Assembly: GCF_003864255.1 (NCBI RefSeq)
Contig: NZ_QWEZ01000001.1
Span: forward strand, 1,364,001-1,428,000
Direction: 5' to 3'
DNA length: 64,000 bases
From: Aestuariirhabdus litorea
GTDB taxonomy: Bacteria > Pseudomonadota > Gammaproteobacteria > Pseudomonadales > Aestuariirhabdaceae
Under the pieces are notes generated by a model. The model saw only the letters and a list, made by a program, of their open reading frames with translations. It made no database searches and was not told the origin of the DNA. The translations under genes were made by a program, and so were the position numbers. Shown here in pieces: positions 6,757 to 49,994 of this stretch; position 1 is the first letter of the stretch, and each line of letters starts with the position of its first letter.

Positions 6757-6957
6757 TCAATCACCTTACGGACTTCTCCGCTGACCAACATCATGGTCAG
6801 TGCCTCGCCGATGGGTGCACCAGTTGCTGGTCAAACGCCCAACTCGGTACCGAGACCGGCTGCGCCTCCAGAATGCGAATCAGCGGCACCACATTGGAAC
6901 GATCCACGGACTCCTGGCGCAGAGCGATGTCGAAGCCATGCTCCAGCCACGAGCGGC

Positions 6958-7233: not shown

Positions 7234-7371
7234 GCCGGTAGCGAAGCGTAATGGTAGCCGCGGGGATACGCGGAATGCACTGCGCCGGAGCATCCTGCGG
7301 AGCATGCTCCGAGAACTCAAAACACTCAATCGAGCGATAACGTATATAGAGCGAAAGTAAGCATATACCGC

Positions 7372-33177: not shown

Positions 33178-33798
33178 ATGGACAGAACACGATTTCTCCG
33201 GCTATGGACAACCCTTTTCGATAACCAGGCTGCATTCGATGCACAAACGGTATGGGTGCATATTGCTACCCATTACGCTGGAGAAGGACGCTTCTACCAC
33301 AATCAGGACCATATCGGCTTTTGCCTGCAGCAGCTGGATAAGATCTCCAGCAGGCTGGGCTCCCCGGCAGAGGTAGAGATGGCGCTCTGGTTTCATGACG
33401 TAATCTACCGTATCAACAGCGACAGTAACGAGGCCGACAGCGCCAATTTTTTCTGCCAACTGGTAGGCACCTCTTCCGACTGCCTGCAGAGACGGGATCG
33501 CATTGCCGAGCTGATCATGGACACGACTCACCAGAACCCGCCCGCCAGCCAGGACGGTTGCTATTTAGCGGACATTGACCTTTCCTCGCTGGGAAGGCCC
33601 TGGGAAGCGTTTCTTCAAGACAGCCGCAATGTGCGTAGGGAAAGCCCACACCTCAGTGACGAAGACTACAACGCGGCGCAGCGTAAATTCTTTCAGATGC
33701 TGCTCAGCAGGCCCCACCTGTTTCACACTCAACACTTTCGCGACCACCTGGAGCAGCAGGCACGCTACAACCTGACCCGGGTTCTCTCCGCGAGCTAA
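33178..33798 (+). CDS. HD-superfamily metal-dependent phosphohydrolase (COG4339-like)
   Basis: A 206-aa protein with an HD-type metal site: RFYHNQDHIGFCL, ALWFHDVIY (the HD pair), MDTTHQ and a later Asp in DIDLSSLG. Such proteins hydrolyse phosphate esters or nucleotides; the substrate is not known for this group. It is cotranscribed with the cNMP-binding protein, and its stop overlaps that of the convergent cyclase by 4 nt. A role in breaking or reading a nucleotide signal would fit the neighbours, but this is inference. Confidence 0.85.
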   Translation: MDRTRFLRLWTTLFDNQAAFDAQTVWVHIATHYAGEGRFYHNQDHIGFCLQQLDKISSRLGSPAEVEMALWFHDVIYRINSDSNEADSANFFCQLVGTSSDCLQRRDRIAELIMDTTHQNPPASQDGCYLADIDLSSLGRPWEAFLQDSRNVRRESPHLSDEDYNAAQRKFFQMLLSRPHLFHTQHFRDHLEQQARYNLTRVLSAS

Positions 33799-35201
33799 GG
33801 CTCCATCTCGCCAGCAAGGGTATAGAGCTTCGTCAAACCTCGGCGGCCACGCACCATCACCTCGGCAACCTCAACAAAGTCGAACACCCCCTCCGCCTGG
33901 CGACGGGTTGCTTCGGACAGCAAGATGCAGGTTCCATACTCCTTATTGAGTTGCTCCAGTCGCGCGGCCAGATTAACCGTGTCACCGTGGACGGTGTAAC
34001 TCAAGCGTTCGGGTGTTCCCACCAGCCCCCCCACTACACTGCCGGTGTTGATCCCGATCCGGGTGACCAGTGCAGCGTCTTCGGTGCGCAATCGTGCTTG
34101 AATCTCCAGCGCCGCACGGATCGCATTAACCGCATGATTCCTATCCTCTATAGGCATATTAAACGATGCCAGTACCGCATCCCCCTGGAACTGGTTAATC
34201 GCCCCGCCCCTGCTCTCAATCGGACCCGAAAGAACGCTGAAATAGCGATTCAGGCGTCTAATCAGGTCCACGGGGGGGGTCTGCTCACTGAGCGAGGTAA
34301 ACCCCTCGATATCGCTAAAGAGTATGGTCGCCTCCCCCACTTTGCCACCACCGAACTCCAGGTCGGGGTCGTCCCTGGATACCTGACGCGCCACCTCAGC
34401 CGGAACAAAGCGGGCTAAATCGGTGGCAATCTTGGTCTCCACAACGGCCTCAAACAGTAGCGCGCGCGCCCGCGTAATCGCCAGTGCCAGAATCGAGGTC
34501 ACAATCACCATAGAGATCATCTTGTCGAACTCAGCCCCCAGAAGCACCGAGTTCGAGGTCAGGTAATGGACATAATCCCGGGTCAGGGGCATCTCTCCGC
34601 CACTGGCATAGAGAACGTAGTAAACAAGCAGCATCCAACCAACGACCGCACAGCCCCCTGCAAAGAGTACGTAACGGGCCTCGAAGCGGAGCGCCCTGAT
34701 AGCAATAAATATGAAAACATAGAGCAGTGTAGGTGCTTTCAGGTAAAACGCCGGGGGTTGCTGGTACTGCACATGGAAGCTCCAGATCAAACCATAGAGC
34801 AACGCAAAATTAAGTACGATGGCACTGTAGGAGCGCCAGCTCAGCAGACGCTCAGAGTAGGCCTGCAGCAAACCACCAAGCGTCACCACCAGATAGAGCC
34901 CAAGGGCCCAGGGCACGGGTTCCCTGCTAATCGCCTCCAGCAGTTGCGGCCACAGGCTCGCGTCGAATGAAACGTTCAGCTCCGGTGCCACAAAGGTCTT
35001 GGGGGTCAACAGGTAAAGCAATAGAAAGGTCAAAACAACCGCCAACTCTACCCAGGCAATCAGGCGCTCACTGCCCTGCTGCTGCCGATAGATAGCGGCA
35101 CTCACCCGGGAGCTCTTGAGAATCGGGCCAGCCTCATGGTTCAAATCACCATGAGCCCGATCTGAGATTAGCCCATATCCCCACTGCAGTAGTTTGTTCA
35201 C
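33795..35201 (-). CDS. membrane-bound class III adenylate/guanylate cyclase
   Basis: A 468-aa protein. The N-terminal half (about 45-235) has roughly six hydrophobic helices, and the C-terminal half is a class III cyclase domain: first metal Asp in ILFSDIEGFTSLSEQ, second in FQGDAVLASFN, then GINTGSVVGGLVG and YTVHGDTVNLAARLE. The membrane part is probably a sensor. The start is GTG at 35201 with no clear ribosome binding site, so it is less certain. Next to it, tail to tail, lie a cNMP-binding protein and an HD phosphohydrolase. Confidence 0.85.
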   Translation of the reverse strand: MNKLLQWGYGLISDRAHGDLNHEAGPILKSSRVSAAIYRQQQGSERLIAWVELAVVLTFLLLYLLTPKTFVAPELNVSFDASLWPQLLEAISREPVPWALGLYLVVTLGGLLQAYSERLLSWRSYSAIVLNFALLYGLIWSFHVQYQQPPAFYLKAPTLLYVFIFIAIRALRFEARYVLFAGGCAVVGWMLLVYYVLYASGGEMPLTRDYVHYLTSNSVLLGAEFDKMISMVIVTSILALAITRARALLFEAVVETKIATDLARFVPAEVARQVSRDDPDLEFGGGKVGEATILFSDIEGFTSLSEQTPPVDLIRRLNRYFSVLSGPIESRGGAINQFQGDAVLASFNMPIEDRNHAVNAIRAALEIQARLRTEDAALVTRIGINTGSVVGGLVGTPERLSYTVHGDTVNLAARLEQLNKEYGTCILLSEATRRQAEGVFDFVEVAEVMVRGRRGLTKLYTLAGEMEP

Positions 35202-35357: not shown

Positions 35358-36578
35358 ATGAAGCAGTCTATTAAGCCCGACGCGCGAGTGCTCATCTACA
35401 GCCATGACAGCTATGGGCTGGGTCACCTGAGGCGCTGTCATACCATTGCCCACGCCCTGGTCAGGCATTACAAATCGATCTCCGTACTGATCCTTACCGG
35501 CTCCCCCATCATTGGGCGATTTGATTTTCGCGCACGGGTAGACTTCGTACGCATTCCTGGCGTTATCAAGCTCTACGATGGCGACTACACCAGCCTGGGC
35601 TTGCACATTGACCTTGCACAGACCCTGGCGATTCGCGAATCGATCATTTACAGCACTGCGCTCAGCTTCTCGCCGGACATATTTCTCGTTGATAAGGAGC
35701 CCCTTGGTCTCAAGGGCGAAGTAAAACATACCCTGAAGATGCTAAAGGCTCTGGGAACCACCAACGTGCTGGGGCTAAGGGATGTCATGGACGAGGCCGA
35801 AGCCCTGGATCGGGAGTGGCAGTCCAAGGGCATCCCTGAGCACCTTGACGCCCTGTTTGACCAGGTTTGGGTATACGGCCCCAAGTCAATGGGCAACCCG
35901 TTACAAGGGGTCAGCCTCCCACGCCCGATCGATGACAAGATGCGCTATACCGGCTACCTCAACCGGAGGCTGCCCAAGGCCGCTTTAAACCAGCCATTAC
36001 CCCTCGAACAACCCTACCTGCTGGTGACCACAGGAGGGGGAGGTGACGGGATCGAGCTGGTTGACTGGGTGTTACGCGCTTATGAACAGGCCGAAACAGA
36101 GCTTCCACTGCCGGCCCTGATTGTCCTCGGTCCCTTTATGCCCAGCGAGGAACGAGAGCGGTTTGCCGCCCGTGCGGCCTGCCTGCAACGGGTCAAGGTG
36201 ATTACCTTTAACAATCACCTTGAAGGGCTGATCGCCAAGGCGGAAGCCGTTGTATCCATGGGGGGCTACAACACCTTCTGCGAAATTCTCTCCTTCAGCA
36301 AGCGGGCCATTATAGTGCCCCGTAAAACGCCCCGCCTCGAGCAGTACATCCGTGCGAGTAAGGCCGCGGAATGCGGATTAGTGCAGATGGTGGACCCCGA
36401 CGATCTCGACAATACCGACACCATGATCAGTGCCCTCAAAGCCCTGAGCACGACCCCGCCACCTACACGGGAGATGTGCAAAGGGATGCTCAACGGTATT
36501 GATAACGTCGTCTCGACGGTTTATCGGATCATGTGTGAGCGAGGCCATAACCTGCAACCCAATCAGCCTGAAGAATGA
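35358..36578 (+). CDS. predicted glycosyltransferase, COG4671-type (first copy)
   Basis: A 406-aa GT-B fold protein related to MurG-like transferases. The N-terminal IYSHDSYGLGHLRRCHTIAH is the hallmark of the COG4671 group, and the C-terminal donor site has VTTGGGGDG and VSMGGYNTFCEILSF. It should transfer a sugar from a nucleotide donor, but acceptor and product are unknown. AAGGA precedes the ATG. It overlaps the next glycosyltransferase gene by ATGA; a deacetylase-like gene follows in the same way, so the three form one tightly coupled operon. Confidence 0.85.
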   Translation: MKQSIKPDARVLIYSHDSYGLGHLRRCHTIAHALVRHYKSISVLILTGSPIIGRFDFRARVDFVRIPGVIKLYDGDYTSLGLHIDLAQTLAIRESIIYSTALSFSPDIFLVDKEPLGLKGEVKHTLKMLKALGTTNVLGLRDVMDEAEALDREWQSKGIPEHLDALFDQVWVYGPKSMGNPLQGVSLPRPIDDKMRYTGYLNRRLPKAALNQPLPLEQPYLLVTTGGGGDGIELVDWVLRAYEQAETELPLPALIVLGPFMPSEERERFAARAACLQRVKVITFNNHLEGLIAKAEAVVSMGGYNTFCEILSFSKRAIIVPRKTPRLEQYIRASKAAECGLVQMVDPDDLDNTDTMISALKALSTTPPPTREMCKGMLNGIDNVVSTVYRIMCERGHNLQPNQPEE

Positions 36579-37732
36579 GTCCCTCCGCCCCTCGAATACT
36601 TTTTTATGTGCAACACCTGCTTGGTATAGGGCATCTCAAGCGGGCCGCGCTGATTGCTGAGGCATTAACGCAGGCAGGTATGGAGGTCCACCTTGTCCAA
36701 GGTGGCTTGCCGTCCCCGGTCCGGTTCAATGTCAAAGCCTGTTACCAGCTGCCACCGGTCACCTGCTGCAATGCCGACTTTTCCAACCTGGTTGACCCTC
36801 AGGGCGTTCCCATTGACGCCTCCTATCGTCAACAGCGTGCCGAGCAGCTTTTGCAGATCACCGCTGCCATCCAGCCCGACCTGCTGCTCATCGAGCTGTT
36901 CCCCTTTGGCCGGCGCCAATTTCGCTTTGAGCTGCTTCCGCTACTGGAGCAGGCCCGGTCGCAAGGCATACCCACTGCCTGCTCGCTGAGGGATATTCTG
37001 GTTCAAAAGAGCACTCCCCACCCGAAGCGTGAAGAGGAGACCGTGGCTTATGTGGAGCAGTATTTCAACCGGGTGCTGGTACATAGCGACCCCTCCCTGG
37101 TTACCCTTGAACAAAGCTGCCCCTTTACCCACCGCATCAGGCATAAGCTCAGCTATACAGGGTACGTTGCGGATAGCGGCTCTTCCCCATCGACTCCCCG
37201 GCCCCGCGAGGGGGTCGTGGTGTCCGCGGGTGGCGGTGCCGTGGGTTATCCCCTACTGGAGGCGATCGTCCAGTGCAAAGGAGAGACCTCGCTGGCCAAC
37301 CAGCCCTGGACGCTGATTACCGGCCCAGGGCTCGATGATGTACGGTTTTCCCGCCTGCAGCAAGTGGCCCTGAAGGCCGGCATCGTGGTTGAGCGCTTCC
37401 GCGATGACTTTGTCTCGCTGTTAGCCAAAAGCTCCCTCTCTATCTCCCAGGCGGGTTACAACACCACCATGGAGGTGTTGGCTACCGCAACCCCGGCCCT
37501 GGTGATTCCCTACGGGGAGGGTGGCGAAACCGAACAGCGCCAACGGAGTGAAATTTTGCAACGTAAAGGGTTGATTCAATGGTTGCCTGCCGACTCGCTT
37601 AGACCCGAAATTCTCGCTCCGGCTATCGACCGGGCCGCTCAACAGTCACCCCCGCCCTTGAGCATTGATTTGAGCGGTGCCCATACGACCGCGCGGCTGC
37701 TGCAGGATATGCTTCAGGAGGTCGGACCATGA
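36575..37732 (+). CDS. predicted glycosyltransferase, COG4671-type (second copy)
   Basis: A 385-aa GT-B protein distantly similar to its upstream neighbour: FYVQHLLGIGHLKRAALIAE at the N-terminus mirrors the GLGHLRR motif of the first copy, and the donor site has VVSAGGGAVGYPLLEAIV and SQAGYNTTMEVLATATPALV. Two divergent copies in tandem suggest sequential or heteromeric action on one glycan. ATGA overlaps join it to the genes on both sides. Confidence 0.85.
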   Translation: MSPSAPRILFYVQHLLGIGHLKRAALIAEALTQAGMEVHLVQGGLPSPVRFNVKACYQLPPVTCCNADFSNLVDPQGVPIDASYRQQRAEQLLQITAAIQPDLLLIELFPFGRRQFRFELLPLLEQARSQGIPTACSLRDILVQKSTPHPKREEETVAYVEQYFNRVLVHSDPSLVTLEQSCPFTHRIRHKLSYTGYVADSGSSPSTPRPREGVVVSAGGGAVGYPLLEAIVQCKGETSLANQPWTLITGPGLDDVRFSRLQQVALKAGIVVERFRDDFVSLLAKSSLSISQAGYNTTMEVLATATPALVIPYGEGGETEQRQRSEILQRKGLIQWLPADSLRPEILAPAIDRAAQQSPPPLSIDLSGAHTTARLLQDMLQEVGP

Positions 37733-38493
37733 GCAGGGCTACCCCCTGGGAGGAGCTGGCGGCCGAGCTTGAGCTCTGGGTCGCGGCGGACAAGCCCCTT
37801 AGCCTATGGTGGCGGGACGATGACGCCACCGGCGACTCAGCCCCCCTCAGGCAGCTGCTGGCGTTTGCCGACCGCCACCGTATTCCACTGGCAGCGGCCG
37901 TCATTCCCGCGCAGCTTAGCCCCTCACTGGCGCTGCGACTACGACAGCACCCGTCAGTCAGCTGCCTGCTGCATGGCTACGACCACATCAGCTATGCCCC
38001 CCCGCAAGAGCGCAAACAGGAGTTGGGCGCGCATCGTCCCCCGGCCCTGGTGTTAAGCCGACTGCAGCAGGGTGACCTGCGCTTGCGTCAGGAGCTGGGT
38101 GATCAATACCAGTCGATCCTGGTACCCCCCTGGAACCGTATCAGCCCGGAGCTCATCGCCGGGCTAGGGGAGATTGGCCTTAAAGGCCTTTCGACCCTGG
38201 GACCCCGACCAGCCAACCCACCGCTGCCCATCAACAATGTCCACGTTGACCTTATCGACTGGAAGCTGCGGCGCTTTGCCGGTATCAAGCGGGTCATAAG
38301 CCAATTGCTCCAGCACCTTCGCCAACGGCGCCTGGGTGAAGTGGATAGCCTCGAAGCCAGCGGCATCATGAGCCACCACCTGGTGCATGACACTGAGTGC
38401 TGGGAGTTTATGGAGCAGCTGCTGGAGCAGTTAAGCGCCTGCCCCCAGGTCCGCTGGCCAAAGATTGCCCACCTATTCGAAAGGTCTCCCTAG
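37729..38493 (+). CDS. polysaccharide deacetylase-like (NodB-fold) protein
   Basis: A 254-aa protein with the metal triad of the carbohydrate esterase 4 fold: Asp-rich motif WWRDDDATGD (residues 24-33), HGYDH near 84 and PPWNR near 128, which match motifs 1, 2 and 3 of NodB-type enzymes. It has no signal peptide, so it should act in the cytoplasm, on the product of the two glycosyltransferases encoded just upstream (inference). It overlaps the second of these by ATGA and the convergent histidine phosphatase gene by 4 nt. Confidence 0.75.
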   Translation: MSRATPWEELAAELELWVAADKPLSLWWRDDDATGDSAPLRQLLAFADRHRIPLAAAVIPAQLSPSLALRLRQHPSVSCLLHGYDHISYAPPQERKQELGAHRPPALVLSRLQQGDLRLRQELGDQYQSILVPPWNRISPELIAGLGEIGLKGLSTLGPRPANPPLPINNVHVDLIDWKLRRFAGIKRVISQLLQHLRQRRLGEVDSLEASGIMSHHLVHDTECWEFMEQLLEQLSACPQVRWPKIAHLFERSP

Positions 38494-39074
38494 TCACCTT
38501 CCAGGGGCAGGTTACACTGCACAAAACAAAGCCCCTGCTCCGCTGACCATGAGAACTCCAGCAACCGTCCCCAATCCGGCTTCACCGGGCAGCGCTCCAC
38601 CATATCCCAGCGGCACGCCTCAGCAAGGGCCGCCCGGATAACCCCCTTGTGGGTCACCACCCCAATGTCCGTTTTTGGCTGCAGGGTAGCCAGCCAGCTC
38701 AGTAGCCGGTCGATTACCTGTTGAGGGCACTCCCCTCCCTCAGGGGTCATAAAGCGGCCTCGAGCCTCTTCACGGGCCATCTGCTGCGGGGCGGCCCGAC
38801 GCAGTCCCTCAATGGTTTTCCCCTCCCAGCTTCCCCACGCCATCTCGATCAGTGCAGGCTCCGGAGTGGCCACAAGGCCGATCGCCTGGGCGGTTTGCCG
38901 GGTTCGGGTAAGGGGGCTGCAATACCAGGCGAGATCCCGGTAGCGGGAGGCCAGCCTGAGCTGAGACAGCTCCTGCCGGGTGTCAGGCAGAAGCGGTATA
39001 TCGGTGTGCCCTTGTACCCTTTTTTCCAGGTTCCAGGCGGTTGTTCCATGGCGCAGCATAAAAAGGCTAATCAT
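38490..39074 (-). CDS. histidine phosphatase family protein
   Basis: A 194-aa phosphoglycerate-mutase-like phosphatase. The phospho-histidine motif is LRHGTTAWN (residues 7-15), with Arg and Glu in YCSPLTRTRQT and EMAWGSWEG, and the second His in VVTHKGVIRA. It overlaps the glycosyltransferase gene upstream by 8 nt. In glycan clusters such enzymes can remove phosphate from a sugar phosphate, but the substrate is not readable. Confidence 0.85.
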   Translation of the reverse strand: MISLFMLRHGTTAWNLEKRVQGHTDIPLLPDTRQELSQLRLASRYRDLAWYCSPLTRTRQTAQAIGLVATPEPALIEMAWGSWEGKTIEGLRRAAPQQMAREEARGRFMTPEGGECPQQVIDRLLSWLATLQPKTDIGVVTHKGVIRAALAEACRWDMVERCPVKPDWGRLLEFSWSAEQGLCFVQCNLPLEGD

Positions 39075-40191
39075 AGTGCGCCCCTATTATTTCCTGTAGG
39101 GTGGCGACCGCCTTTTCCAGGCTACAGTGACGCCGCATCAACTCTGGGCACTTGTCAGCAGCCCGCGGGATCAGAAGCGGATCGCTCAACAGCCGCCTCA
39201 GTTCATGCTCAAAACGCTCACAACTGTTATCGGTGGTCATGATCAGCGCTCCCCCCGTTCCTGCCAGGGGAAACAGGGTGGGGCTGTAGCCGGATAGAAC
39301 CGGCACCCCTGCGTTCATCGCTTCCAGCATTGCCATACCAATCGCCTCATTAACCGCCGGCCAGACAAAGAGATCGCAGCACCCAACCCATTGCGCCATC
39401 GTTTCCACAGGCTGCTCACCCACGAACACTACCCTCTCGCGCACAGGGCTGAACAGCGCCTCAACCGCAGCCCTCTCGCGACCATCCCCGATGACCAACA
39501 AGCGCCACGGGTAATCACTGACGCCCTGGAGGCTGGTCGCCAGCCGCTGATAGCTGCTGAGCTTATCACCCGGCCGCATCATTGCGCAGGTGACCAGCCA
39601 GGTATCGTGCGGATCAAGCCCAAGGGCGGCGGCCAGCGCGTTACGGTTGGGTTTTGGTAAAGGGTCAGGGGCGAGAAAAGGCAACATGGAATGGATGCGC
39701 TCGGCAGGTAGATAGTCGCGCAGGGCCACCTCATCCCTGGGGTTAAGCGCCAGCACCGCCGCCGCCTGTCGAAGGGCAACCATCGACTGCTCCCAGCCTT
39801 GATGCCAGGGGCCTCCCCGTTGCTTGTTGGCGATCGAGGCCTCGGCCACCACGTAAGGGATGCCCATCACCCGGGAGACCTCGGGTCCTATCCAATCGGG
39901 AGCCTTGTGGTAAAGGTGGTAGGTAAACCAGCAGCGGGGTCTCTCTTTCTCCGGTAATGTCTGGTATCGGGTGATCAGTCGCCGGCACTCCGCTTCGGCA
40001 CTCGCACGAATCTGCTGCTGGCTTAGGGGGTCCCCTTTCCCCTCCCAGCTTCTCAGGGTACTGGCAATCTCAACCCGATAGTCCGCCTGTTGCAGGGCCT
40101 CAAAAAACAACCGTGCGATGCGCTGATCCCCCGAGGGTATCGGATGATTCAGCGGCTTCATCGGCGCATAAAAAGCGATGGTTCGGCTCAC
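39067..40191 (-). CDS. glycosyltransferase family protein (GT-B)
   Basis: A 374-aa GT-B transferase. The donor-binding C-terminal part has VTCAMMRPGDKLSSYQRLA, RLLVIGDGRER and FVWPAVNEAIGMAMLEAMNA, the last being the E-x7-E element of GT4 enzymes. The N-terminus MSRTIAFYAPMKPLNHPIPS starts with GTG, which overlaps the stop of the preceding glycosyltransferase. It belongs to the three-gene minus-strand operon GT4, GT, phosphatase. Confidence 0.85.
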   Translation of the reverse strand: MSRTIAFYAPMKPLNHPIPSGDQRIARLFFEALQQADYRVEIASTLRSWEGKGDPLSQQQIRASAEAECRRLITRYQTLPEKERPRCWFTYHLYHKAPDWIGPEVSRVMGIPYVVAEASIANKQRGGPWHQGWEQSMVALRQAAAVLALNPRDEVALRDYLPAERIHSMLPFLAPDPLPKPNRNALAAALGLDPHDTWLVTCAMMRPGDKLSSYQRLATSLQGVSDYPWRLLVIGDGRERAAVEALFSPVRERVVFVGEQPVETMAQWVGCCDLFVWPAVNEAIGMAMLEAMNAGVPVLSGYSPTLFPLAGTGGALIMTTDNSCERFEHELRRLLSDPLLIPRAADKCPELMRRHCSLEKAVATLQEIIGAHYD

Positions 40192-41435
40192 CCCTGCGCC
40201 TCGAACTGGCTATAGATGCGGTCAATTCCCTCTGCCAGGGAGAAGTGTTCACGCACCCGCTGGTAGCCCGCTTGCGCCAACCGTTGCCGAAGCGCAGGAT
40301 CGCTGATCAGAAGCACCAAAGCGTCTCGCAAGGCCCGCTCATTCTCCGGCGGCACCAGAAGCCCGCTCTCGCCATCGATGATCAGCTCAGGGATTCCCGA
40401 TATATCCGTTGACAGGCAGGCAACCCCCTGACTTTGTGCCTCCATCAATACGTTCGGCAGCCCGTCCCGGTCACCATCAGCATTCACCCTTGACGCCAAT
40501 ACAAAGATATCGGCCTGCTGGTAAGCCTGCAAAACCTGTTGCTGCGAACAAGCGCCCTGCCAGGCGATACGTTCTTCAATACCCAGGTCGGCCGCCTGGC
40601 TCTTGAGCGCGGCTAACCCCTCCCCACCTCCAATGTGGGTAAAGCGCCAGTTAAGCTCTGCAGGCAGCAGCGCCAGCGCATTGAGCAAAAAATCATAGCC
40701 TTTTTTGGGCACCGCACGCCCAACCGAGAGTATCTCTACCGGAGCCTGGTGGTTCACGGCCAGCTCAAGCTGAGGGATAGTTGTCGCCAGCTGGCCACTC
40801 GCAGGTTCGGGAAAGCGGTCGAAGTCGAGACCGTGGTAGCTCAGGAAAACAGTGTCCGGTCGATCGCTGAGCCCTTTGAGGTAATCGGTGTTGGCCTGGG
40901 TGCAGGTGGTCAACCAGCTCAGGCTGGCCAGTTTTTCCTTGAGCTCCCAGCGCGGGCTGGTCCAGATATCCTTGGCATGGGCGGAGGCGCACCATTCAAG
41001 CCCGGTCAGCTCGCTGGTATAACGGGTGACGGAAGCGGGGGTATGGATGAAATGGGCATAGAGGACCTCGGTATCGGGCGGCAGCTCGCGAGCAAGCACC
41101 AATGCCTGGCCAAAGCGGCGTACACGGTTGGCGCTCGGATCCCGCAGCAGGTCGTTCCACCAGGTTCCCACCGTGCCCCAAAAACGACGCGTCAGGCAGC
41201 CAGACAACAGCGCTCTCGCAACTCGCCAGGGCTCCTGATAGAGGTATTCAGGCAGATAGAGCACCGAAGCCTTTATTTCGTCATGAATGGGGTGTCGCTT
41301 TTTGTCCGTTGGGTGGCGCAGGGAAACCAGTGCAATCTCCACCCCCCGCCTTTCCAGCTCACGAATCTCTTGCGCAATAAAGGTTTCCGATAAGCGTGGG
41401 TAACCTTTTAATACCAATGCGATTTTTTTCGCCAA
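40188..41435 (-). CDS. glycosyltransferase family 4 protein
   Basis: A 415-aa GT4 enzyme. VLKGYPRLSETFIAQEIREL at the N-terminus is typical of the WcaL/colanic-acid-type group, and the C-terminal site reads LSVGRAVPKKGYDFLLNAL, HIGGGEGL and GLPNVLMEAQSQGVACLSTD. The start is taken as TTG at 41435, with GGAG 8 nt upstream. It is divergent from the ABC exporter-like gene, with a 117-bp gap for both promoters. Confidence 0.9.
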   Translation of the reverse strand: MAKKIALVLKGYPRLSETFIAQEIRELERRGVEIALVSLRHPTDKKRHPIHDEIKASVLYLPEYLYQEPWRVARALLSGCLTRRFWGTVGTWWNDLLRDPSANRVRRFGQALVLARELPPDTEVLYAHFIHTPASVTRYTSELTGLEWCASAHAKDIWTSPRWELKEKLASLSWLTTCTQANTDYLKGLSDRPDTVFLSYHGLDFDRFPEPASGQLATTIPQLELAVNHQAPVEILSVGRAVPKKGYDFLLNALALLPAELNWRFTHIGGGEGLAALKSQAADLGIEERIAWQGACSQQQVLQAYQQADIFVLASRVNADGDRDGLPNVLMEAQSQGVACLSTDISGIPELIIDGESGLLVPPENERALRDALVLLISDPALRQRLAQAGYQRVREHFSLAEGIDRIYSQFEAQG

Positions 41436-41552: not shown

Positions 41553-44090
41553 ATGGATAGATCTATCTACAGATACATCATTAAAAACACGCTGAGGGAT
41601 CAGGTTCTTATCCTTCTGCTCACGCTCGTCGCTTTTCCGCTGGTCTATGCCTCTCTCGATGTCCCGAAGCAGATCATCAACCGGGCATTAGCGGGCACCG
41701 ACATCCCGGAAACTGTTCTGGGGTATGAGCTGAACCAGATATCCTATCTCTTTTTCCTCTGCTCCCTGTTTCTCCTCCTGGTCATCCTCAACGGAGCGTT
41801 GAAGTATGTCCTCAACGTTTACCGGGGAGTAGTAGGCGAGCGGATGTTACGAAATTTGCGCCTGGAGCTCTATAGCCGGATTCTGCGCTTCCCGCTCCCC
41901 CACTTCAAACGCATCTCCCAAGGAGAGATCATACCGATAATTACGGCTGAAACAGAGCCCCTTGGCGGCTTTATCGGCGACGCTTTTGCCCTCCCCGCCT
42001 TTCAAGGGGGTCTTTTATTGACCTACCTGTTCTTCATATTCAATCAAGACCCCCTGCTGGGGCTGGCGGCCATCTCTCTCTATCCCCTGCAGATGTACGT
42101 GATCCCCAAGCTGCAACGCAAGGTCAACGCCCTCTCTAAGCAGCGGGTGCTGGCGGCCAGAAGGCTCGGCGACAAGGTGGGAGACAGTATGGCGGGTATT
42201 CAGGATGTGCATACCCTGGGCACTTCTGAGTTTGAACGGGTCAAAATAGCAGCCCGCTTACAGGACATCTTCCTGATCCGCTTTGATATCTACAAGCGCA
42301 AGTTTTTTATCAAGTTTTTGAACAATTTTTTATCCAAAGTCACCCCCTTCTTCTTCTATTCGATCGGTGGTTACTACGTCATTCAGGGGGAGTTGACCAT
42401 TGGCGCACTGGTGGCGGTCCTGGCCGCCTACCAGGATCTGGATGCCCCCTGGAAGGAGCTTCTTAAGTACTACCAGACCAAAGAGGATGTGCGCGTCAAA
42501 TATGAGCAGATCGTCGAGCAGTTCACACCGGTGCCGATGTTTCCCCCCAGTCGCCTCAACGAGGGCGATACAAGGCTTGAGCTGGTCAACGAGGAGATCC
42601 GTTTTGACCGGGTTTTCTTCTCCGACCCGGATGCCAGTGTGAAACTCGACAGCATCACCATGACACTGGCCATGAAGCAGTCGGTTGGATTGATGGGTGA
42701 CAACGAGAGCGGGGCCTCCGAGCTGGCCCAGCTGATCTGTAAACTTCAAACCCCGGACCGGGGAGCCATACAGATTTTTGGTCACGACCTGAAGCGTATC
42801 AACGAGCCCGCCCTGAGCCGGACACTCTGCTTTGTCGGCCCCCGCTCGCACCTTTTCGCAGGCACCATCCGCGAAAACCTCCTCTACGGACTGACTCAGC
42901 CCGAGGGCTTCTCCCCAAGCGACCTTACAATCTACGAGCAACCCATCGGGCACGACTGGCTGGACCTTGAACAGACCCCTTACGACTCCCTACAGGCGCT
43001 ACAGGCGGAGATCTTGTCGCTCTGCACCCTGTTTGAGCTCGATGCCGACCTCTACCGCTTCGGCCTGCAACAGTCGATGGCCAACGCCCCTGACGAGCAG
43101 CTGGCCCACAAGCTGGTGACACTGAGGCAAGAGCTGCGTGATCGCTTGTCGGAGGCGGGGATGGATGACCTGATTGAGACCTTCGACAGCGAACGCTATA
43201 ACACCAATATCAGCGTGGCTGAAAATATCCTTTTTGGCAGCTGCTCGGACCCCTCCCTGAGCGCCGACACCTTGCACCTCGACGGCTCATTACAACGCTC
43301 TCTGCTGAATAACCAACTCATGCCGACCGCTCTGAGCATCGGTTACAAGGTTGCCGAAACCATGATCGAACTCTTCGCCGACCTGGAGCCCGGCAACGAT
43401 ATCTACGAACGGTTCAGCTTTATCAGTGCAGAGGACCTTCCTGAATACAAGGAGCTGCTGGCCAAACACCCGATCGAAAAGGTGGAATCACTGCAGGCTG
43501 AACAGCGGGAAAAACTGCTTGCCCTCTTTATGAAACTCACCCCGGCCAGGCACCGACTGGGGCTGATCGACGAGTCGATACAGGCGACCCTGGTCAAGGT
43601 TCGCCAGGAGTTCGCACAGCTCCAGCAAGGACGCCGTGAGCTTGTCCATTACCGGTTTGATCAGTTCAACGGCCTGCTCAGCATTCAGGAGAACATTCTC
43701 TTCGGCAAGCTGGTGTACGGCAAAGCCAATGCGCAACAGAAGGTTGCTGACGTCATCGACCAGCTGATCGACGAGCATCACCTGAGGGCGGATATCCAGC
43801 ATTACGGCCTGGAGTATGAGGTCGGGACCGCGGGTTCAAAACTGCAGACCGCCACCCGGCAAAAGCTGGCACTGATCAGGGCCATGATTAAGCAGCCCCG
43901 CGTTATGGTCGTTGACCAGGCGACCAGTGCCCTTGACGAGCAGTCCGAACAGCGGCTGATCGAACGTTTGCTGACGTCGGGCCGCTGTGCGTTTGTCTGG
44001 GTCGTCAACCGACAACACCTGATGCCCCTGTTTGAGCACCGGGTCGAGCTCGCTGGAGGGCGCATCATCGACTCCACCCCCTCTAACTGA
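41553..44090 (+). CDS. ABC exporter-like protein with degenerate nucleotide-binding domain
   Basis: 845 aa. The first 325 residues are a type I exporter domain with six helices. The nucleotide-binding domain starts near 340 but has lost its catalytic residues: Walker A reads GLMGDNESGAS (Lys replaced by Ala), the signature LSGGQ reads LQTAT (before RQKLALIRAM), Walker B reads VMVVDQATSALDEQ (Glu replaced by Gln), and the H-loop His is Asn (VVNRQH). About 300 residues separate the Q-loop region from the signature, against about 60 normally, and the motif 'ENxLxG' occurs three times (about 441, 556, 712), as if this segment were triplicated. The frame is intact over 2.5 kb, so it is not a pseudogene. 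A TTG at 41544 is an alternative start. It lies among glycosyltransferase genes. Confidence 0.8.
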   Translation: MDRSIYRYIIKNTLRDQVLILLLTLVAFPLVYASLDVPKQIINRALAGTDIPETVLGYELNQISYLFFLCSLFLLLVILNGALKYVLNVYRGVVGERMLRNLRLELYSRILRFPLPHFKRISQGEIIPIITAETEPLGGFIGDAFALPAFQGGLLLTYLFFIFNQDPLLGLAAISLYPLQMYVIPKLQRKVNALSKQRVLAARRLGDKVGDSMAGIQDVHTLGTSEFERVKIAARLQDIFLIRFDIYKRKFFIKFLNNFLSKVTPFFFYSIGGYYVIQGELTIGALVAVLAAYQDLDAPWKELLKYYQTKEDVRVKYEQIVEQFTPVPMFPPSRLNEGDTRLELVNEEIRFDRVFFSDPDASVKLDSITMTLAMKQSVGLMGDNESGASELAQLICKLQTPDRGAIQIFGHDLKRINEPALSRTLCFVGPRSHLFAGTIRENLLYGLTQPEGFSPSDLTIYEQPIGHDWLDLEQTPYDSLQALQAEILSLCTLFELDADLYRFGLQQSMANAPDEQLAHKLVTLRQELRDRLSEAGMDDLIETFDSERYNTNISVAENILFGSCSDPSLSADTLHLDGSLQRSLLNNQLMPTALSIGYKVAETMIELFADLEPGNDIYERFSFISAEDLPEYKELLAKHPIEKVESLQAEQREKLLALFMKLTPARHRLGLIDESIQATLVKVRQEFAQLQQGRRELVHYRFDQFNGLLSIQENILFGKLVYGKANAQQKVADVIDQLIDEHHLRADIQHYGLEYEVGTAGSKLQTATRQKLALIRAMIKQPRVMVVDQATSALDEQSEQRLIERLLTSGRCAFVWVVNRQHLMPLFEHRVELAGGRIIDSTPSN

Positions 44091-44099
44091 GCGACCCCC

Positions 44100-45260
44100 T
44101 CAGTGCTTATAGGGGTCCGCCGCATCCCTTAGGCCATCCCCCAGGAAGTTAAACGCGAGAATAACGCAAATGACCGGCACCACCGGCAGCATCAGCCAGG
44201 GGTAAATGGCCACCACATTAACATTCTGGGCTTCCGCCAGCAGTACTCCCCAGCTGGTGATCGGGGGGCGCAAACCCAGCCCCAGAAAGCTGAGTGCAGT
44301 CTCACCGAGGATCATGGCTGGTATCGACAGGGTCGCTGAGGCGATCAGGTGGCTGAAAAACCCGGGAAGCAGGTGTTTGCGAATGATACGTGGGGGGGAG
44401 GCGCCCATCAGGGCCGCCGCACTGGCATAATCCTCCTCGCGTAGCGCCAGCAGCTTGGAACGGACGGCTCGCGCCAACCCGGTCCAGTCCATCAGTGCCA
44501 GAATCAGGGTGATGCCGAAAAACACCCATAGTGGACTCCAGGTGACCGGAATAATCGCCGACAGCGCCATCCACAACGGCAGTTCAGGGAAGGAGCGAAT
44601 CACCTCGATCACCCGCTGCACCAGATTATCCACCCAGCCGCCGTAATAGCCGGCGAGGCTGCCAATAACTACCCCCATGATCATGCTCAGGCAGATACCC
44701 ACCAGCCCGATGGTAATGGAGATGCGAGTACCGTAGATGATTCTCGACAGCATATCCCGCCCCAACCGGTCGGTGCCCAGCAAGAACAGCGTTCCGCCCT
44801 CCTCAACACAGAGCAGATGCAGGTCGGAGTTCAGGACACCCCAAAAACGGTACTCCTCGCCGGGACAAAAAAACCCTATGCGGTAGATTTTACTCCTGTC
44901 CTCTGAGTAGACCCGTAGCAGGCGATCCATATCCAGGGTTTGCTGCCAGCCGTATACGAAGGGTCCCACCCACTCCCCCTCATGAAACAGGTGCACCGGT
45001 TGCGGTGGTGAGTAGATGGAGTCGACATGGCGACTGTGTAGCGTATAGGGCGCAAGGAACTCGCAGATCAGTATGGAGAAATAGAGCAGGAGAATGAACA
45101 GCCCGCTGTACAGGGCCAGCTTGTGCTGTTTGAATTTCCACCACATCAGCTGCCACTGGGACGCCAGGAAAAAAGCCTGCTGCGCGGCCTGGGCCTTTTC
45201 CGTGGACATCGGGTCAAACTCGTCCTTGCAAACAAAGTGAGGATTAGCCGGTTGTTTCAT
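44100..45260 (-). CDS. ABC transporter permease (DppC/OppC type)
   Basis: A 386-aa inner membrane permease with six helices. The ATPase contact loop is EEDYASAAALMGASPPRIIRKHLLP (EAA motif), and GTDRLGRDMLSRIIYGTRIS marks the DppC-type domain. Between TM1 and TM2 there is a periplasmic insert of about 120 residues (CPGEEYRFWGVLNSDLHLL), longer than in standard DppC. It overlaps the DppB-type gene by ATGA and is the last gene of the importer operon. Confidence 0.88.
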   Translation of the reverse strand: MKQPANPHFVCKDEFDPMSTEKAQAAQQAFFLASQWQLMWWKFKQHKLALYSGLFILLLYFSILICEFLAPYTLHSRHVDSIYSPPQPVHLFHEGEWVGPFVYGWQQTLDMDRLLRVYSEDRSKIYRIGFFCPGEEYRFWGVLNSDLHLLCVEEGGTLFLLGTDRLGRDMLSRIIYGTRISITIGLVGICLSMIMGVVIGSLAGYYGGWVDNLVQRVIEVIRSFPELPLWMALSAIIPVTWSPLWVFFGITLILALMDWTGLARAVRSKLLALREEDYASAAALMGASPPRIIRKHLLPGFFSHLIASATLSIPAMILGETALSFLGLGLRPPITSWGVLLAEAQNVNVVAIYPWLMLPVVPVICVILAFNFLGDGLRDAADPYKH

Positions 45261-46255
45261 CGGCGAGCCCCTCCCTCAAGACGAATGCGAGGGTCGAGCA
45301 CCGCCAGCAGCAGATCCGAGATCAGCACCCCAATCACCGTTAACGTAGCCAGGAACATCAGGAAAGAGCCCGCCAGGTACATATCCTGGCTCTGAAGCGC
45401 ACCCAGTAACATAGGACCTGTAGTGGGGAGCGAGAGGACCAGCGCAACGATTTCAGCCCCCGAGATAATACTGGGCAGCATATTGCCAATATCCGCGACA
45501 AAAAAATTGAGCGATACCCTGAACGGGTACTTCAGCAGCAGGCGGGTTTCGGGCAACCCTTTCGCCCTGCCGGTCACGACATAGGGTTTATGGAGCTCGT
45601 CAAGCAGGTTCGCCCTGAGGCGCCTGATCATACCCGCTGTGCCTGAGGTGCCGATGACGATTACAGGGATCCACAGGTGTTCAAGAATGGAGCTTACCTT
45701 CGCCCAACTCCAGGGCTGGTTGATGTACTGCTCATCCATCAAGCCTCCGATGGAGGTGCCGAAATAGACGTTGGCAAAATAGAGCATCACCAGCGCCAAC
45801 AGGAAGTTGGGGGTCGCCAGGCCGATAAAGCCAAGCAGGGTCAGTCCATAGTCCCCCCAGCTGTACTGGTGCGTGGCAGAGTAAAGACCGATAGGGAACG
45901 CAATCAGCCAGGTAAAAATAATGGTAAGCATAGACACCAGGATGGTGAGATACATCCTGTCTCCAACCACCTCCGACACCGGTAGGTCATACTCAAAGGA
46001 GTAGCCGAAATCGCCCTGTACGAAGCCTGTCACCCACGACAGGTACTGCTCCATAAAACTCTTGTCGAGACCGTATTCAGCACGCAGGTAGGCGACTTTT
46101 TCCATATCCACACTTTCACCCTGTGCCTGCAGTTCAGCAATATAGCTTTCCAGGTAGTCACCGGGCGGAAGCTGAATGATGACAAACACAACCAGGCTGA
46201 TCAGCAGCAGGGTTGGAACCATCAGCAATACCCGTTTAAGGATATAAGTGCCCAT
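45257..46255 (-). CDS. ABC transporter permease (DppB/OppB type)
   Basis: A 332-aa permease. The N-terminal helix (ILKRVLLMVPTLLLISLVVF), the EAA loop (YVVTGRAKGLPETRLLLKYP) and the C-terminal ISDLLLAVLDPRIRL are as in the DppB family. Its ATG follows the stop codon of the solute-binding protein gene without any gap. It pairs with the DppC-type permease to form the pore. Confidence 0.9.
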   Translation of the reverse strand: MGTYILKRVLLMVPTLLLISLVVFVIIQLPPGDYLESYIAELQAQGESVDMEKVAYLRAEYGLDKSFMEQYLSWVTGFVQGDFGYSFEYDLPVSEVVGDRMYLTILVSMLTIIFTWLIAFPIGLYSATHQYSWGDYGLTLLGFIGLATPNFLLALVMLYFANVYFGTSIGGLMDEQYINQPWSWAKVSSILEHLWIPVIVIGTSGTAGMIRRLRANLLDELHKPYVVTGRAKGLPETRLLLKYPFRVSLNFFVADIGNMLPSIISGAEIVALVLSLPTTGPMLLGALQSQDMYLAGSFLMFLATLTVIGVLISDLLLAVLDPRIRLEGGARR

Positions 46256-48109
46256 CTATCGAGCCCCCTCTGCATCCCTGAGCCAAAAGGTGTCGGGATT
46301 GTAGATACCGAAGTAGGATCCCGGCTCCCAGCTATACCACCCCTGTACCGGAACATTCCTAAGCCGGTTGCTGACCACAATCGGCTGCATGATCCCCGTC
46401 ACCGTTCCAATACTGAATACCTGGTTGGAATAGATCCTTAACATCTCCTGCCAGATATCCCAACGCTGCTGACGGTTACGGGAGCTCTCCCAGGTCTCGA
46501 CCAGTGTTCGTAAACGCTTGGCAGGGAGTAGGTCCGGGGGATCGCCTTTACCGGTTTCGTAGTAGTTCCCCCACATCGGCCATTGCAACTGCTGCTGTGA
46601 GTAGGGGGCAAGCTCCCATGGACTCATGTCGCTGGTCGCCAAGGCGTTATCAAGCCCCTTCCACACTGACATGATTGCTTCACCGGAGAACACCCGGTTA
46701 CGAAATACCTCTCGTTGGGAGGGCCTTATGTGAAGCTTGATGCCAACCTCCATCCAGTGATCGTGCACCAGTTGAAGCACATCGGTCTCTTCGGTTTCCT
46801 CACCCGCTGTGTGGACCACCACCTCCATCGGGCGTCCATCGGGTAGCAGGCGGATTCCCCTGGCATCCCGCTCAAGCAGCCCCAACTCATCCAGCAGGTC
46901 GTTCGCTTGCCGGGGGTCGTACTGGTTCCAGGCTTTCATAAAGTCCTCCTGGAACAGAGTGCTCTCCGGCAGCAATGTATTCCCCCCCTCCTCCGCCAGG
47001 CCGTAATAAACCACCTGGTTGATCTCATGCCGGTTAATGGCCAGCGACAGAGCGCGACGGAAGCGGACATCCCGATTCAGTGTTCTCCACTGATCATCCT
47101 TGGCATTGAGGTTGGGGTAAATAGCAAATTGAGATCCCCGAGCGGCTTTCCAAAAGCGCACCTGATACCCCCCGGACTGCTCACCCTGTTTAAGAAAGGT
47201 ATAGTTATCCAGGCGAATATAGCGGCCCTGTAGATCACTTTCTCCAGCGCGTGCCTTGGCCGCGATCAGGCTGCTGCCCACAATATTGATAACCACCTCG
47301 TCAATGTAGGGTAGCTGGGTGCCGCGGGCATCCACGCGGTGAAAGAAGGGGTTACGCAGAAACACAAAGCGGTCGGCTGGAGCAGGCGTTGAGTTGTACC
47401 AGGGTTGCAGGGTGGGCAACTCCGGGTTATCCATCTGGTAAAGATGTGCACGGGACTTAAGCAGCGCAACCCAGTTGCGCTTGGAGGCCTTCTCTTGCCG
47501 GTCCTGCAATCGCTCCGGCTCCGCGTAGCGCGCATGAAACTGCCTCATGTAGTGGGCAGGCAGGTAAAGGTCCAAAGCCCTGGGACCTGCCAACTGCGGT
47601 AAAAAGTTGGGGTTAGGCGAGCTCCAGCTATAACGCAGGGTCAGCTCATCGATCACCTCTAACACAGGGGGCTCACCGTCGACCATCATCGATTGGGGCG
47701 GCCCAAAGGGGGACAGCTCCTCATTGAGGGCAACATCCTCCCAGTAGAAACGAAAGTCCTCACTCGTGAAAGGAACCCCGTCTGACCAGCGATGCCCGGG
47801 ACGAAGATGGAAGGTAAAAATCCGGTCATCCTCGTTTTCATAGGCCAGCAAGATATCGGGTATTAACTCAAAGTTTCGGTCGTAACCCACCAGGCGCGCG
47901 TAACCATAGACATTCATCATCCTGATGTCCTTGGACTTCGCCATCAGCATATGGATGGAACCGCCGCTTTTGCCGAGGGTTTGAGGCGGTAATAACTCCA
48001 TAACCCGGGGACTGTCGGGAGGCTGGGGCTGTATCGCCTTTAGCGGAGCGCTCAACAGACCCAGGAGCGAGTAGAGAAGTAGTCCTGTTAACGCCCACCT
48101 AGCTTTCAT
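46256..48109 (-). CDS. ABC transporter extracellular solute-binding protein (family 5)
   Basis: A 617-aa periplasmic binding protein with a cleavable signal peptide (ALTGLLLYSLLGLLSAPLKA) and no lipobox cysteine. The family 5 motif FHLRPGHRWSDGVPFTSEDF is near residues 97-116, and FRRALSLAINRHEINQVVYY near 350. It would bind a peptide or oligosaccharide; long YejA-like members have a similar size. It overlaps the dual ATPase gene by 11 bp and is followed directly by both permeases. Confidence 0.88.
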   Translation of the reverse strand: MKARWALTGLLLYSLLGLLSAPLKAIQPQPPDSPRVMELLPPQTLGKSGGSIHMLMAKSKDIRMMNVYGYARLVGYDRNFELIPDILLAYENEDDRIFTFHLRPGHRWSDGVPFTSEDFRFYWEDVALNEELSPFGPPQSMMVDGEPPVLEVIDELTLRYSWSSPNPNFLPQLAGPRALDLYLPAHYMRQFHARYAEPERLQDRQEKASKRNWVALLKSRAHLYQMDNPELPTLQPWYNSTPAPADRFVFLRNPFFHRVDARGTQLPYIDEVVINIVGSSLIAAKARAGESDLQGRYIRLDNYTFLKQGEQSGGYQVRFWKAARGSQFAIYPNLNAKDDQWRTLNRDVRFRRALSLAINRHEINQVVYYGLAEEGGNTLLPESTLFQEDFMKAWNQYDPRQANDLLDELGLLERDARGIRLLPDGRPMEVVVHTAGEETEETDVLQLVHDHWMEVGIKLHIRPSQREVFRNRVFSGEAIMSVWKGLDNALATSDMSPWELAPYSQQQLQWPMWGNYYETGKGDPPDLLPAKRLRTLVETWESSRNRQQRWDIWQEMLRIYSNQVFSIGTVTGIMQPIVVSNRLRNVPVQGWYSWEPGSYFGIYNPDTFWLRDAEGAR

Positions 48110-49994
48110 CGGTATGCATCCTTACCCAGTGATTGGGCTCCAGCTCCACCAGGTGGCTGCTGATGTGCGGCGATAGCGTAAAAGGCGCTGGCCAGAATTC
48201 CGGTTGCGCCAACCCGGCCTCCTGCAGTTCAAAATCAAGCAGCTGATTCATATCCGGAGCCGGAACCGCATCAATCAAGGCCTGGGTATAGGGGTGAAGC
48301 GGCCGCGCAAACAGCTCTCCAGATGGGGCGATCTCTACGATTTGACCATGGCACATCACCACCACCCGCTCTGCAATGTAATCAACAACGGCGAGGTTAT
48401 GGCTGATAAATAGATAGGTGAGCCCCAGTTCTGCTTGCAGGTCCTTCAGGAGGTTGAGTATTTGCGCCTGGACCGACACATCCAAAGCTGAAACCGGCTC
48501 ATCCAGAATCAGCAGATCCGGGGACAGGGCCAGGGCTCGAGCAATACTGATGCGCTGGCGCTGGCCGCCAGAAAAGCTGTGGGGATAACGATTGAGAAGC
48601 TCGGGCCTGAGTCCCACCAGCTCCATTAAATCCTGCGCGCGCCTTTGACGGAAAGCCTTATCACCCACCTGGTGAATAACCAGGGGCTCGGTAATAATAT
48701 CATTCACCGTCATCCGCGGGCTTAACGCACTATAGGGGTCCTGGAACACCAGCTGCATTCTGGGACGAAACTGTTCAAGCGCCCTCCCCTCCAGCTCCAG
48801 CAGCGACCGCCTGATTCCCCTGTCGTTGTAAAAGATCGATCCTGAGCTCGGCTCAAGGCCGCGCATCAACATTTTCGAGAGCGTGGTTTTTCCGCAGCCG
48901 CTTTCACCCACCAGACCAAGGGACTCGCCAACGGCAATATCCAGGCTGAAATCCCGTACCGCATGGATCACCTCCTCATCGCCGACTCCAAACCAGCCAC
49001 TGGAACGCTGAAGGTACTGCTTGGAAAGGTTCTGAATACTCAGGTGAGGTGCCTGCTGCCGTTCGGATTCAGCCCAGGGAGTGTATAGCTCCTGAATATG
49101 AGCGAGCCCAGTCTCGCAGGAGCGTATCGGGCTGAGCCGCTCCTCAGGCCCCAGATTGAAACGGGGTACCGCCCGGAACAGCGACTGCAGGTAGCTATGC
49201 TGCGGATTACCAAAAATCGTCTCTACCGGCCCCTTTTCAACCACCCGCCCGTGGTACATAACAACCACCTCATCGGCCATGTTGGCGACGACCCCAAGGT
49301 CATGGGTGATTAACAAGACCGCCATATTGAGCTCTGCCTGCAACCGGCGAATCAGTTTGAGAATCTGCTTCTGGACCGTCACATCAAGGGCGGTGGTGGG
49401 CTCATCGGCGATCAGTAAAACAGGGTGACAAATAAGCGCCATCGCTATCATCGCTCGCTGCCGCAGGCCACCGGAGAGCTCGAAAGGGTAAAGGTTCATC
49501 GCCTGCTGCGGGTTACGAAAGCCCACCAGAGCCAGCATCTCCTGCGTTAACTCGAGGCCTTCGGCGCGTTTCATTTTACGGTGCAGAAACAGGGCTTCGC
49601 TGATCTGGTTACCGATGGTGTGCATGGCCGACATCGAAACCATCGGCTCCTGGAAAATGATCGATATTTGCCCTCCCCGAATCTGGCGAATTTCCGGCCC
49701 TCTCGGATCAATGGCTGCAATGTCCACGCAACTACCCGCCTGCGCTGGATCCCTGAAGAGAATACTGCCTGATCGAATACGTGCGTTGCCTGGCAATATC
49801 CCCAATATGGATTGAGAGCAAACGGACTTACCGGACCCTGACTCACCGACCAGGGCCAGCGTCTTTCCCTCGCGAACGTTGAAAGAGACCCGGTCGAGGG
49901 CTCGAATGCTTCCACCCGGCATCTCGAAATCGACCACCAGATCCCGGATTTCGAGCATTTCAGGCTGATCAGGGTTAGACGAGATTGATAGCAA
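48099..49994 (-). CDS. ABC transporter ATPase, fused DppD-DppF type
   Basis: A 631-aa protein with two complete nucleotide-binding domains. Domain 1: Walker [10 protein letters not shown], signature [15 protein letters not shown], Walker [13 protein letters not shown]. Domain 2: [36 protein letters not shown]. This fused form resembles YejF of the yejABEF system. It energises the importer encoded downstream. The start is taken as TTG at 49994 with AAGGA upstream; an ATG 36 nt later is possible. First gene of the operon ATPase, binding protein, DppB, DppC. Confidence 0.9.

Follow-up and report, generated by a model that had tools for sequence, protein, structure and literature searches.

A putative non-hydrolysing ABC exporter derivative with a triplicated helical segment and a cyclic-nucleotide-binding partner in Aestuariirhabdus litorea and its relatives

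A 64,000-nucleotide stretch of the Aestuariirhabdus litorea genome (contig NZ_QWEZ01000001.1, positions 1,364,001 to 1,428,000; hereafter the window, with positions counted from its first letter) encodes an exporter-type ATP-binding cassette (ABC) half-transporter in which the ATPase motifs of the nucleotide-binding domain (NBD) are degenerate and one segment of this domain is present three times. We refer to this protein and its relatives as pseudo-ABC proteins. Judging from the sequences of the whole family, it very probably does not hydrolyse ATP, and our preferred reading, to which we give slightly better than even chances, is that of a non-hydrolysing, cyclic-nucleotide-regulated, ABC-derived membrane gate or platform, the NBD being a docking and regulatory platform, which operates with a surface-glycan locus. 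The gene and its membrane part are located as follows:

41553..44090, + strand: pseudo-ATPase ABC exporter half-transporter, 845 residues, with a transmembrane domain (TMD), a degenerate NBD and a triplicated helical insert (Pfam, AF2)
41553..42527, + strand: transmembrane domain (residues 1-325), better conserved across the family than any other part

The open reading frame (41544/41553-44090, + strand) runs from the ATG at 41553 to its stop codon with no interruption, and full-length relatives without internal stops are encoded in two genomes of the same genus (77% and 65% identity), which bears out the intact frame described in an earlier note made from the letters of the window alone. Its product matched the Pfam families ABC_membrane (E 2.6e-21, 77 bits vs. 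a cut-off of 28) and, following it, ABC_tran (E 5.6e-15, 56.6 bits vs. a cut-off of 25), so that the domain order is that of membrane domain and then NBD, and both structural hallmarks of type IV ABC exporters, an ABC_membrane TMD and a C-terminal ABC NBD fold, were found. The full-length AF2 model (pLDDT 84, pTM 0.77) superimposed on the NBD of ComA (Z 26.4, 224 of 239 residues, 2.5 Å) and on exporter half-transporters (TM287/288, TmrAB, Atm1, MsbA; Z about 25). The ABC-exporter architecture is thus predicted to be retained, as the same note had assumed when it considered the fold to be kept. Identity with the lipid A flippase MsbA was rejected (159.4 bits against the NCBIfam equivalog TIGR02203, cut-off 602), as was that with any canonical MsbA, HepA or CydD equivalog, for which the NCBIfam scores lay far under the cut-offs.

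Within this predicted fold, five motifs that contact or hydrolyse nucleotide are altered in the window copy, as read from the family alignment and, for Walker A, also from the sequence itself:

42696..42722, + strand: degenerate Walker A, residues 382-390 (GDNESGASE), Lys388 replaced by Ala
42831..42857, + strand: degenerate Q-loop, residues 427-435 (FVGPRSHLF), Gln430 replaced by Pro
43842..43856, + strand: degenerate signature, residues 764-768, LSGGQ replaced by LQTAT
43902..43919, + strand: degenerate Walker B, residues 784-789 (VMVVDQ), Glu replaced by Gln
44007..44009, + strand: H-loop position 819, His replaced by Asn

From the motif set of an active pump, the Walker A Lys, the Q-loop Gln, the signature, the Walker B Glu and the H-loop His are therefore all gone. 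The four substitutions already pointed out in the earlier note (Ala in Walker A, LQTAT, Gln in Walker B and Asn in the H-loop) are all present in the sequence. Its wording that every catalytic element is altered was right for these and overlooked the Q-loop Pro430, but went too far, as this copy still has Ser389, the Walker B Asp788 and the D-loop SALD.

The second peculiarity of the NBD is its length. Between the Q-loop (residue 430) and the signature (residue 764) lie 334 residues, a span of roughly 55 in canonical exporters, which leaves about 280 extra residues (not the 300 first estimated from the sequence). The three ENxLxG motifs noticed there at the same time belong to a triplicated segment:

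42897..43667, + strand: insert, residues about 449-705 (AF2, profile searches)
42765..43109, + strand: repeat unit 1, residues 405-519, native Q-loop strand, GTIRENLLYG and helical part (hhalign)
43113..43589, + strand: repeat unit 2, residues 521-679, extra copy with SVAENILFG (hhalign, structural superposition)
43593..43922, + strand: repeat unit 3, residues 681-790, SIQENILFG, continuing into the signature region (hhalign)

In profile-profile comparisons of these non-overlapping units with hhalign, units 2 and 3 matched at E=2e-14, units 1 and 2 at E=6e-5 and units 1 and 3 at E=7e-5, all three pairs aligning in one register, while a control against the TMD gave E=0.1 and a probability of 0.6%. 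Each unit extends from the strand preceding the Q-loop through ENxLxG into the helical part, and in the AF2 model the ENxLxG helix of each comes after a short strand (residues 425-428/439-447, 541-543/555-560 and 697-699/711-716). Modelled alone, the stretch 449-745 is predicted to be well folded (pLDDT 93.2, pTM 0.86). A profile of residues 490-745 hit no Pfam family above the cut-off and retrieved no PDB sequence relative at E<0.3, and Foldseek returned nothing at E<1 for the insert model. With VIA-align this model gave low Z values (about 5), nearly all matches being to the Q-loop/helical stretch of ABC NBDs; these would fit a duplication, but are weak by themselves. The insert matched no known family in these profile searches, and the description that fits it best is two additional copies of the Q-loop/helical-subdomain segment, which thus occurs three times.

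The erosion of the ATPase motifs is a property of the family, which is old and widespread in bacteria. Relatives were drawn from the best 80 of at least 437 confirmed in a scan of a genome collection, mostly Alpha- and Gammaproteobacteria, and the insert was present in 31 of 398 sampled Pseudomonadota genomes. Outside the genus, identity was 53% for a relative in another family of the same order and 37-49% for further relatives in the class; genera among the best 80 include Azospirillum, Tistrella, Inquilinus, Nisaea, Thalassobaculum, Marinobacterium and Zooshikella. Seven ATPase elements were scored in 87 aligned full-length relatives, none of which had all seven (maximum 5), so that the possibility raised with the first description, that intact homologues exist or that the window copy alone has degenerated, found no support in this set. 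LSGGQ was absent from all 87, LSAAQ being commonest; the signature Ser was kept in 64 and the Gln in 72 (LSxAQ). The Walker A Lys was present in 54, and the next position held Ser/Thr in eight and Asp/Glu in 66; the Walker B Asp was found in 10 (Asn in 62) and the catalytic Glu in 55, while the Q-loop Gln remained in 24 and the H-loop His in 33. More distant members were even more degenerate, and one lineage (L102-L104) kept GKS and the Walker B Asp-Glu and lost the signature, Q-loop and H-loop residues. Most members combine an acidic residue behind the Walker A Lys with Asn at the Walker B Asp position, a pattern that, from general ABC biochemistry, should be unfavourable to Mg-ATP.

At the same time the gene is maintained. 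Within the genus, the proportion of nonsynonymous differences (pN) over the reading frame was 0.15 vs. a saturated synonymous proportion (pS) of 0.81, which indicates strong purifying selection, and constraint was strongest in the TMD (pN 0.067 vs. about 0.2, or 0.17-0.21, in NBD and insert).

Some members depart from this general picture. In five of them (L115-L118 and L136) the pseudo-NBD and the insert are kept and the N-terminal membrane domain is too diverged for the TMD profile of the family. One contig filed as Anaerolineae (L030) has a typical alphaproteobacterial gene order and probably is a misbinned contig of a metagenome-assembled genome (MAG), and a gammaproteobacterial MAG (L010, G347:C45) carries a second copy with an interrupted frame, the TMD of which groups with the fusion type of the alphaproteobacterial family f261. 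In Sinorhizobium meliloti, the match begins at query residue 114 in strain 1021 (L147, pSymB at about 842 kb) and at residue 2 in strain 2011 (L142), a difference that may reflect a frameshift or a record difference in 1021.

The most constant companion of the pseudo-ABC gene encodes a small cyclic-nucleotide-binding protein (hereafter cNMP protein, after its Pfam domain), near which the window also has a cyclase gene:

32707..33171, + strand: stand-alone cyclic-nucleotide-binding protein, 154 residues, phosphate-binding cassette GEMAVITKQPRSAT (Pfam cNMP_binding, E 4e-21)
33795..35201, - strand: class III adenylate/guanylate cyclase (Pfam Guanylate_cyc, E 1e-23), syntenic in 16 of 47 loci

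Synteny was counted over 47 loci having at least 8 kb on either side of the pseudo-ABC gene, and in 46 of them a relative of the cNMP protein was encoded within about 10 kb. The distance was less than 600 bp in 57 of 80 loci, and the usual alphaproteobacterial arrangement has the pseudo-ABC gene followed, after about 100 bp, by the cNMP gene. The phosphate-binding cassette GE..A..R.A[TS], with its Glu and Arg, is preserved in 33 of 34 cNMP proteins of the family. In several members (L086, L102-L104, L128-L133 and TM1040_RS03855 of Ruegeria sp. TM1040) a single fused chain carries both parts, with the cNMP domain at the C-terminal end of the pseudo-ABC protein. Because of this fusion and the near-universal linkage there is good evidence from sequence comparison that the two proteins act together, and it is quite likely that the cyclic-nucleotide partner acts on the pseudo-ABC protein. 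A second class III cyclase-type gene lies in the window at 21118-22338, eight such genes and 18 cNMP-binding domain matches were counted in the genome, and in L136 a cyclase gene adjoins the pseudo-ABC-type gene.

Relatives that lack the NBD altogether were found as proteins of 400-434 residues on plasmids of Phaeobacter and Azospirillum and on one sampled chromosomal contig, with 41-45% identity to the window TMD and a chain that stops right past this domain; plasmid records of Sulfitobacter and Pseudosulfitobacter gave TMD-only matches likewise, and some of these relatives are on conjugative Roseobacter plasmids. They carry one more helix at the N-terminus and lack parts of the intracellular loops through which the TMD normally contacts the NBD. 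The genes examined are located in copper-resistance clusters (copper oxidase, azurin-like protein, cytochrome c) without glycosyltransferases:

L141:13773-15074: TMD-only relative
L143:7770-9026: TMD-only relative
L144:7770-8969: TMD-only relative
L176, about 6543-7781: TMD-only relative

The membrane domain of this family can thus do without any NBD. In a tree of TMD sequences the NBD-less proteins form one clade (support 0.999) within the pseudo-ABC group, which is itself set apart from five exporter paralogues of the window's genome (0.993). Because the NBD-less clade is nested in this group, the motor was probably lost first and the whole NBD later. Viral carriage was considered and rejected, as the single IMG/VR contig with a TMD-only relative has it next to an apparent host aminotransferase gene, with no phage-gene evidence. 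The suggestion of a pseudo-ATPase rather than a pump, with which the analysis began, is strengthened by these relatives, by the absence of a complete motif set from all 87 aligned proteins, by purifying selection and by the intact predicted fold.

The surroundings of the gene in the window are dominated by glycan genes on one side and by an importer on the other (synteny again among the 47 loci):

33178..33798, + strand: presumably an HD-like hydrolase, which we take it to be from its motif, without a Pfam hit; 14 of 47 loci
35358..36578, + strand: GT28-type glycosyltransferase; 42 of 47
36575..37732, + strand: GT28-type glycosyltransferase with distant MurG similarity; 42 of 47
37729..38493, + strand: polysaccharide-deacetylase-like protein, weak DUF2334 match below the cut-off; 38 of 47
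38490..39074, - strand: histidine phosphatase (branch 1); 38 of 47
39067..40191, - strand: GT4 glycosyltransferase; 40 of 47
40188..41435, - strand: GT4 glycosyltransferase, closest NCBIfam model EpsE (below the cut-off); 44 of 47
44100..45260, - strand: oligopeptide-type ABC permease (neighbour clusters, profile match)
45257..46255, - strand: oligopeptide-type ABC permease (syntenic cluster)
46256..48109, - strand: solute-binding protein SBP_bac_5; 31 of 47
48099..49994, - strand: fused double ATPase of the importer, GsiA/YejF-like; 36 of 47

The glycan synteny is conserved from Aestuariirhabdus to Azospirillum, Rhizobium and Sinorhizobium, and the same gene block is found on p42e of R. etli and pSymB of S. 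meliloti. From this conserved gene order, a role of the pseudo-ABC protein in a glycan pathway appears reasonably likely. The oligopeptide-type importer (44100-49994) also stays beside the pseudo-ABC gene from Gamma- to Alphaproteobacteria and may serve to bring in what that pathway produces or starts from. In S. meliloti, the pSymB ABC exporter MsbA2 (SMb21191 operon) is linked to glycosyltransferases and a polysaccharide described as unknown (PMC3687685, PMC12239276); it is not the family member, as the two loci differ (about 938 kb vs. 842 kb on pSymB). SMb20813 has been called an msbA homologue (PMC10945364), and equating it with the family member is an unconfirmed guess from the gene numbering.

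In the mechanism that we propose, the pseudo-ABC protein would dimerise as other ABC exporters do, without ATP hydrolysis, and its NBD would have turned into a non-catalytic regulatory platform, enlarged by the two extra helical-subdomain copies, on which the cNMP protein could dock. At the window locus the class III cyclase would be the probable source of the signal. Docking might then shift the state of the TMD via the conserved intracellular loops, the TMD then serving, without need of ATP, as a gate, a flippase or a membrane anchor in the surrounding surface-glycan pathway, which would comprise the four glycosyltransferases, the deacetylase-like protein and the phosphatase. We infer the homodimer, the control by cyclic nucleotides, the role as gate or flippase and the substrate, and whether translocation is gated or the protein is purely a scaffold appears to us evenly balanced. 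More tentatively, and on balance doubtfully, an ABC-exporter body may have been converted once, anciently, into an ATP-independent gate, controlled by cyclic nucleotides via the pseudo-NBD and its triplicated helical module, that later yielded both the single-chain cNMP fusions and NBD-less gates for copper handling.

Several observations weigh against this picture. In Gammaproteobacteria, the window included, the cNMP gene is several genes off, with genes on both strands intervening; the phosphate-binding cassette is weakened in some of the fused members, those of f261 have no glycan neighbours, and a cyclase gene accompanies only 16 of the 47 loci. Backbone support within the pseudo-ABC group of the TMD tree is low. 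Finally, because many relatives keep the Walker A Lys and L102-L104 retain GKS and Asp-Glu, leftover nucleotide binding is possible in parts of the family. The same residues, together with the Walker B Glu of 55 relatives, would suit a protein that binds ATP and does not hydrolyse it, as a slow switch or an ATP sensor in the manner of SUR or the degenerate sites of CFTR; the acidic residue that follows the Lys in most relatives and the Asn in Walker B argue against this, as does the loss of the Lys itself from the window copy, and we regard it as improbable, a little more so than the heterodimer discussed next.

Heterodimers with one degenerate site are common (PMC7756269), and the pseudo-ABC protein could be the degenerate half of one of the TM287/288 or TAP type, contributing a TMD and a signature to a canonical half encoded elsewhere that hydrolyses ATP. 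The signature Ser and Gln retained in much of the family would agree with this, and the window's genome encodes five further proteins with an exporter-type TMD, of which three have Walker A GKS and LSGGQ. Most positive genomes of f261 carry two or three copies (G490, G518, L128, L129, L131-L133), as if two different subunits paired as a heterodimer. All five copies read there (two in G518, three in G490) are pseudo-ABC-cNMP fusions and all are degenerate, which argues against an active partner half. The degenerate half of heterodimeric exporters normally retains a good signature and usually Walker A, whereas here erosion extends to Walker A, Q-loop, signature and Walker B alike, with LQTAT in the window copy and LSGGQ in no relative aligned. 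Among the conserved neighbour clusters no canonical exporter half was found, the neighbouring ABC genes being those of the oligopeptide importer, and the TMD-only relatives need no NBD. With the signature lost, no conserved partner half and the f261 copies degenerate wherever read, the heterodimer is weakened to an improbable alternative. A passive scaffold, a membrane anchor that would organise the glycosyltransferases and the sensor of cyclic nucleotides without transporting anything, is unlikely as well, though the strongest of these alternatives: a dead NBD with extra helical modules would suit docking, and glycosyltransferases are the most constant neighbours after the cNMP protein, but the TMD is conserved beyond what a mere anchor should need and TMD-only forms persist in copper-resistance clusters where glycosyltransferases are missing. 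The combination of a cyclase, a cNMP domain and a membrane protein is also the layout of Pycsar, so that the pseudo-ABC protein might be the membrane effector of this or another cyclic-nucleotide-triggered defence, and the cNMP protein indeed matches Pycsar models of PADLOC, via the shared domain only. We consider this very remote, given the syntenic glycan genes in distant genera instead of defence surroundings, the scarcity of the cyclase and the lack of any substantial PADLOC match for the pseudo-ABC protein. The remaining explanation, a decaying pseudogene or lineage-specific relic, could appeal to the window lineage being more degenerate than the family average; its probability is negligible, since it is ruled out by intact frames in all three members of the genus and the low pN at saturated pS, besides full-length relatives across classes.

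With type IV (ABCB/MsbA-like) exporters the pseudo-ABC protein shares the ABC_membrane TMD, the TMD-NBD order and the overall predicted fold, and differs from them in the family-wide erosion of nucleotide-contact motifs and in the insert. Non-canonical NBD residues in a retained fold also occur in TM287/288, TmrAB, TAP, CFTR and SUR; there ATP is bound and one consensus site remains in each dimer, whereas any pairing of pseudo-ABC proteins would leave both sites dead. A conceptual analogue is SUR1/SUR2 (ABCC8/9), in which an ABC-exporter body acts as a regulator, not a pump; SUR binds nucleotides and gates a separate K+ channel, while the partner here is a cNMP-binding protein and no channel subunit was seen. 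The cNMP protein itself has a cNMP_binding domain with phosphate-binding cassette in common with CRP/cNMP-domain proteins without a DNA-binding domain and with Pycsar effectors, yet carries no helix-turn-helix, TIR or effector domain and is linked to a pseudo-ABC exporter by fusion or synteny. A literature search (pseudo-ATPase ABC proteins, NBD-less ABC proteins, and cNMP, ABC and exopolysaccharide together; subscription papers outside its scope) found no description of the family. Degenerate NBDs are familiar as one site of a heterodimer (PMC7756269), and a family that combines two dead sites with a triplicated helical segment and a cNMP partner is apparently undescribed in the literature searched.

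Annotated members are named just 'ABC transporter ATP-binding protein' or 'transmembrane-domain-containing protein'. Such database names imply an ATP-driven pump, which the motifs contradict in hundreds of genomes, including those of nitrogen-fixing symbionts. As pseudo-NBD forms, pseudo-NBD forms with a cNMP domain and NBD-less forms coexist, the family amounts to a natural experiment that asks which portions of the exporter are still required in the absence of ATP hydrolysis. It further suggests a direct control point for cyclic nucleotides on a surface-glycan locus, for which Azospirillum, Rhizobium and Sinorhizobium include tractable strains. If the tentative single conversion considered above is true, this would be a lineage in which an ABC transporter ceased to be a primary pump yet remained a working membrane device.

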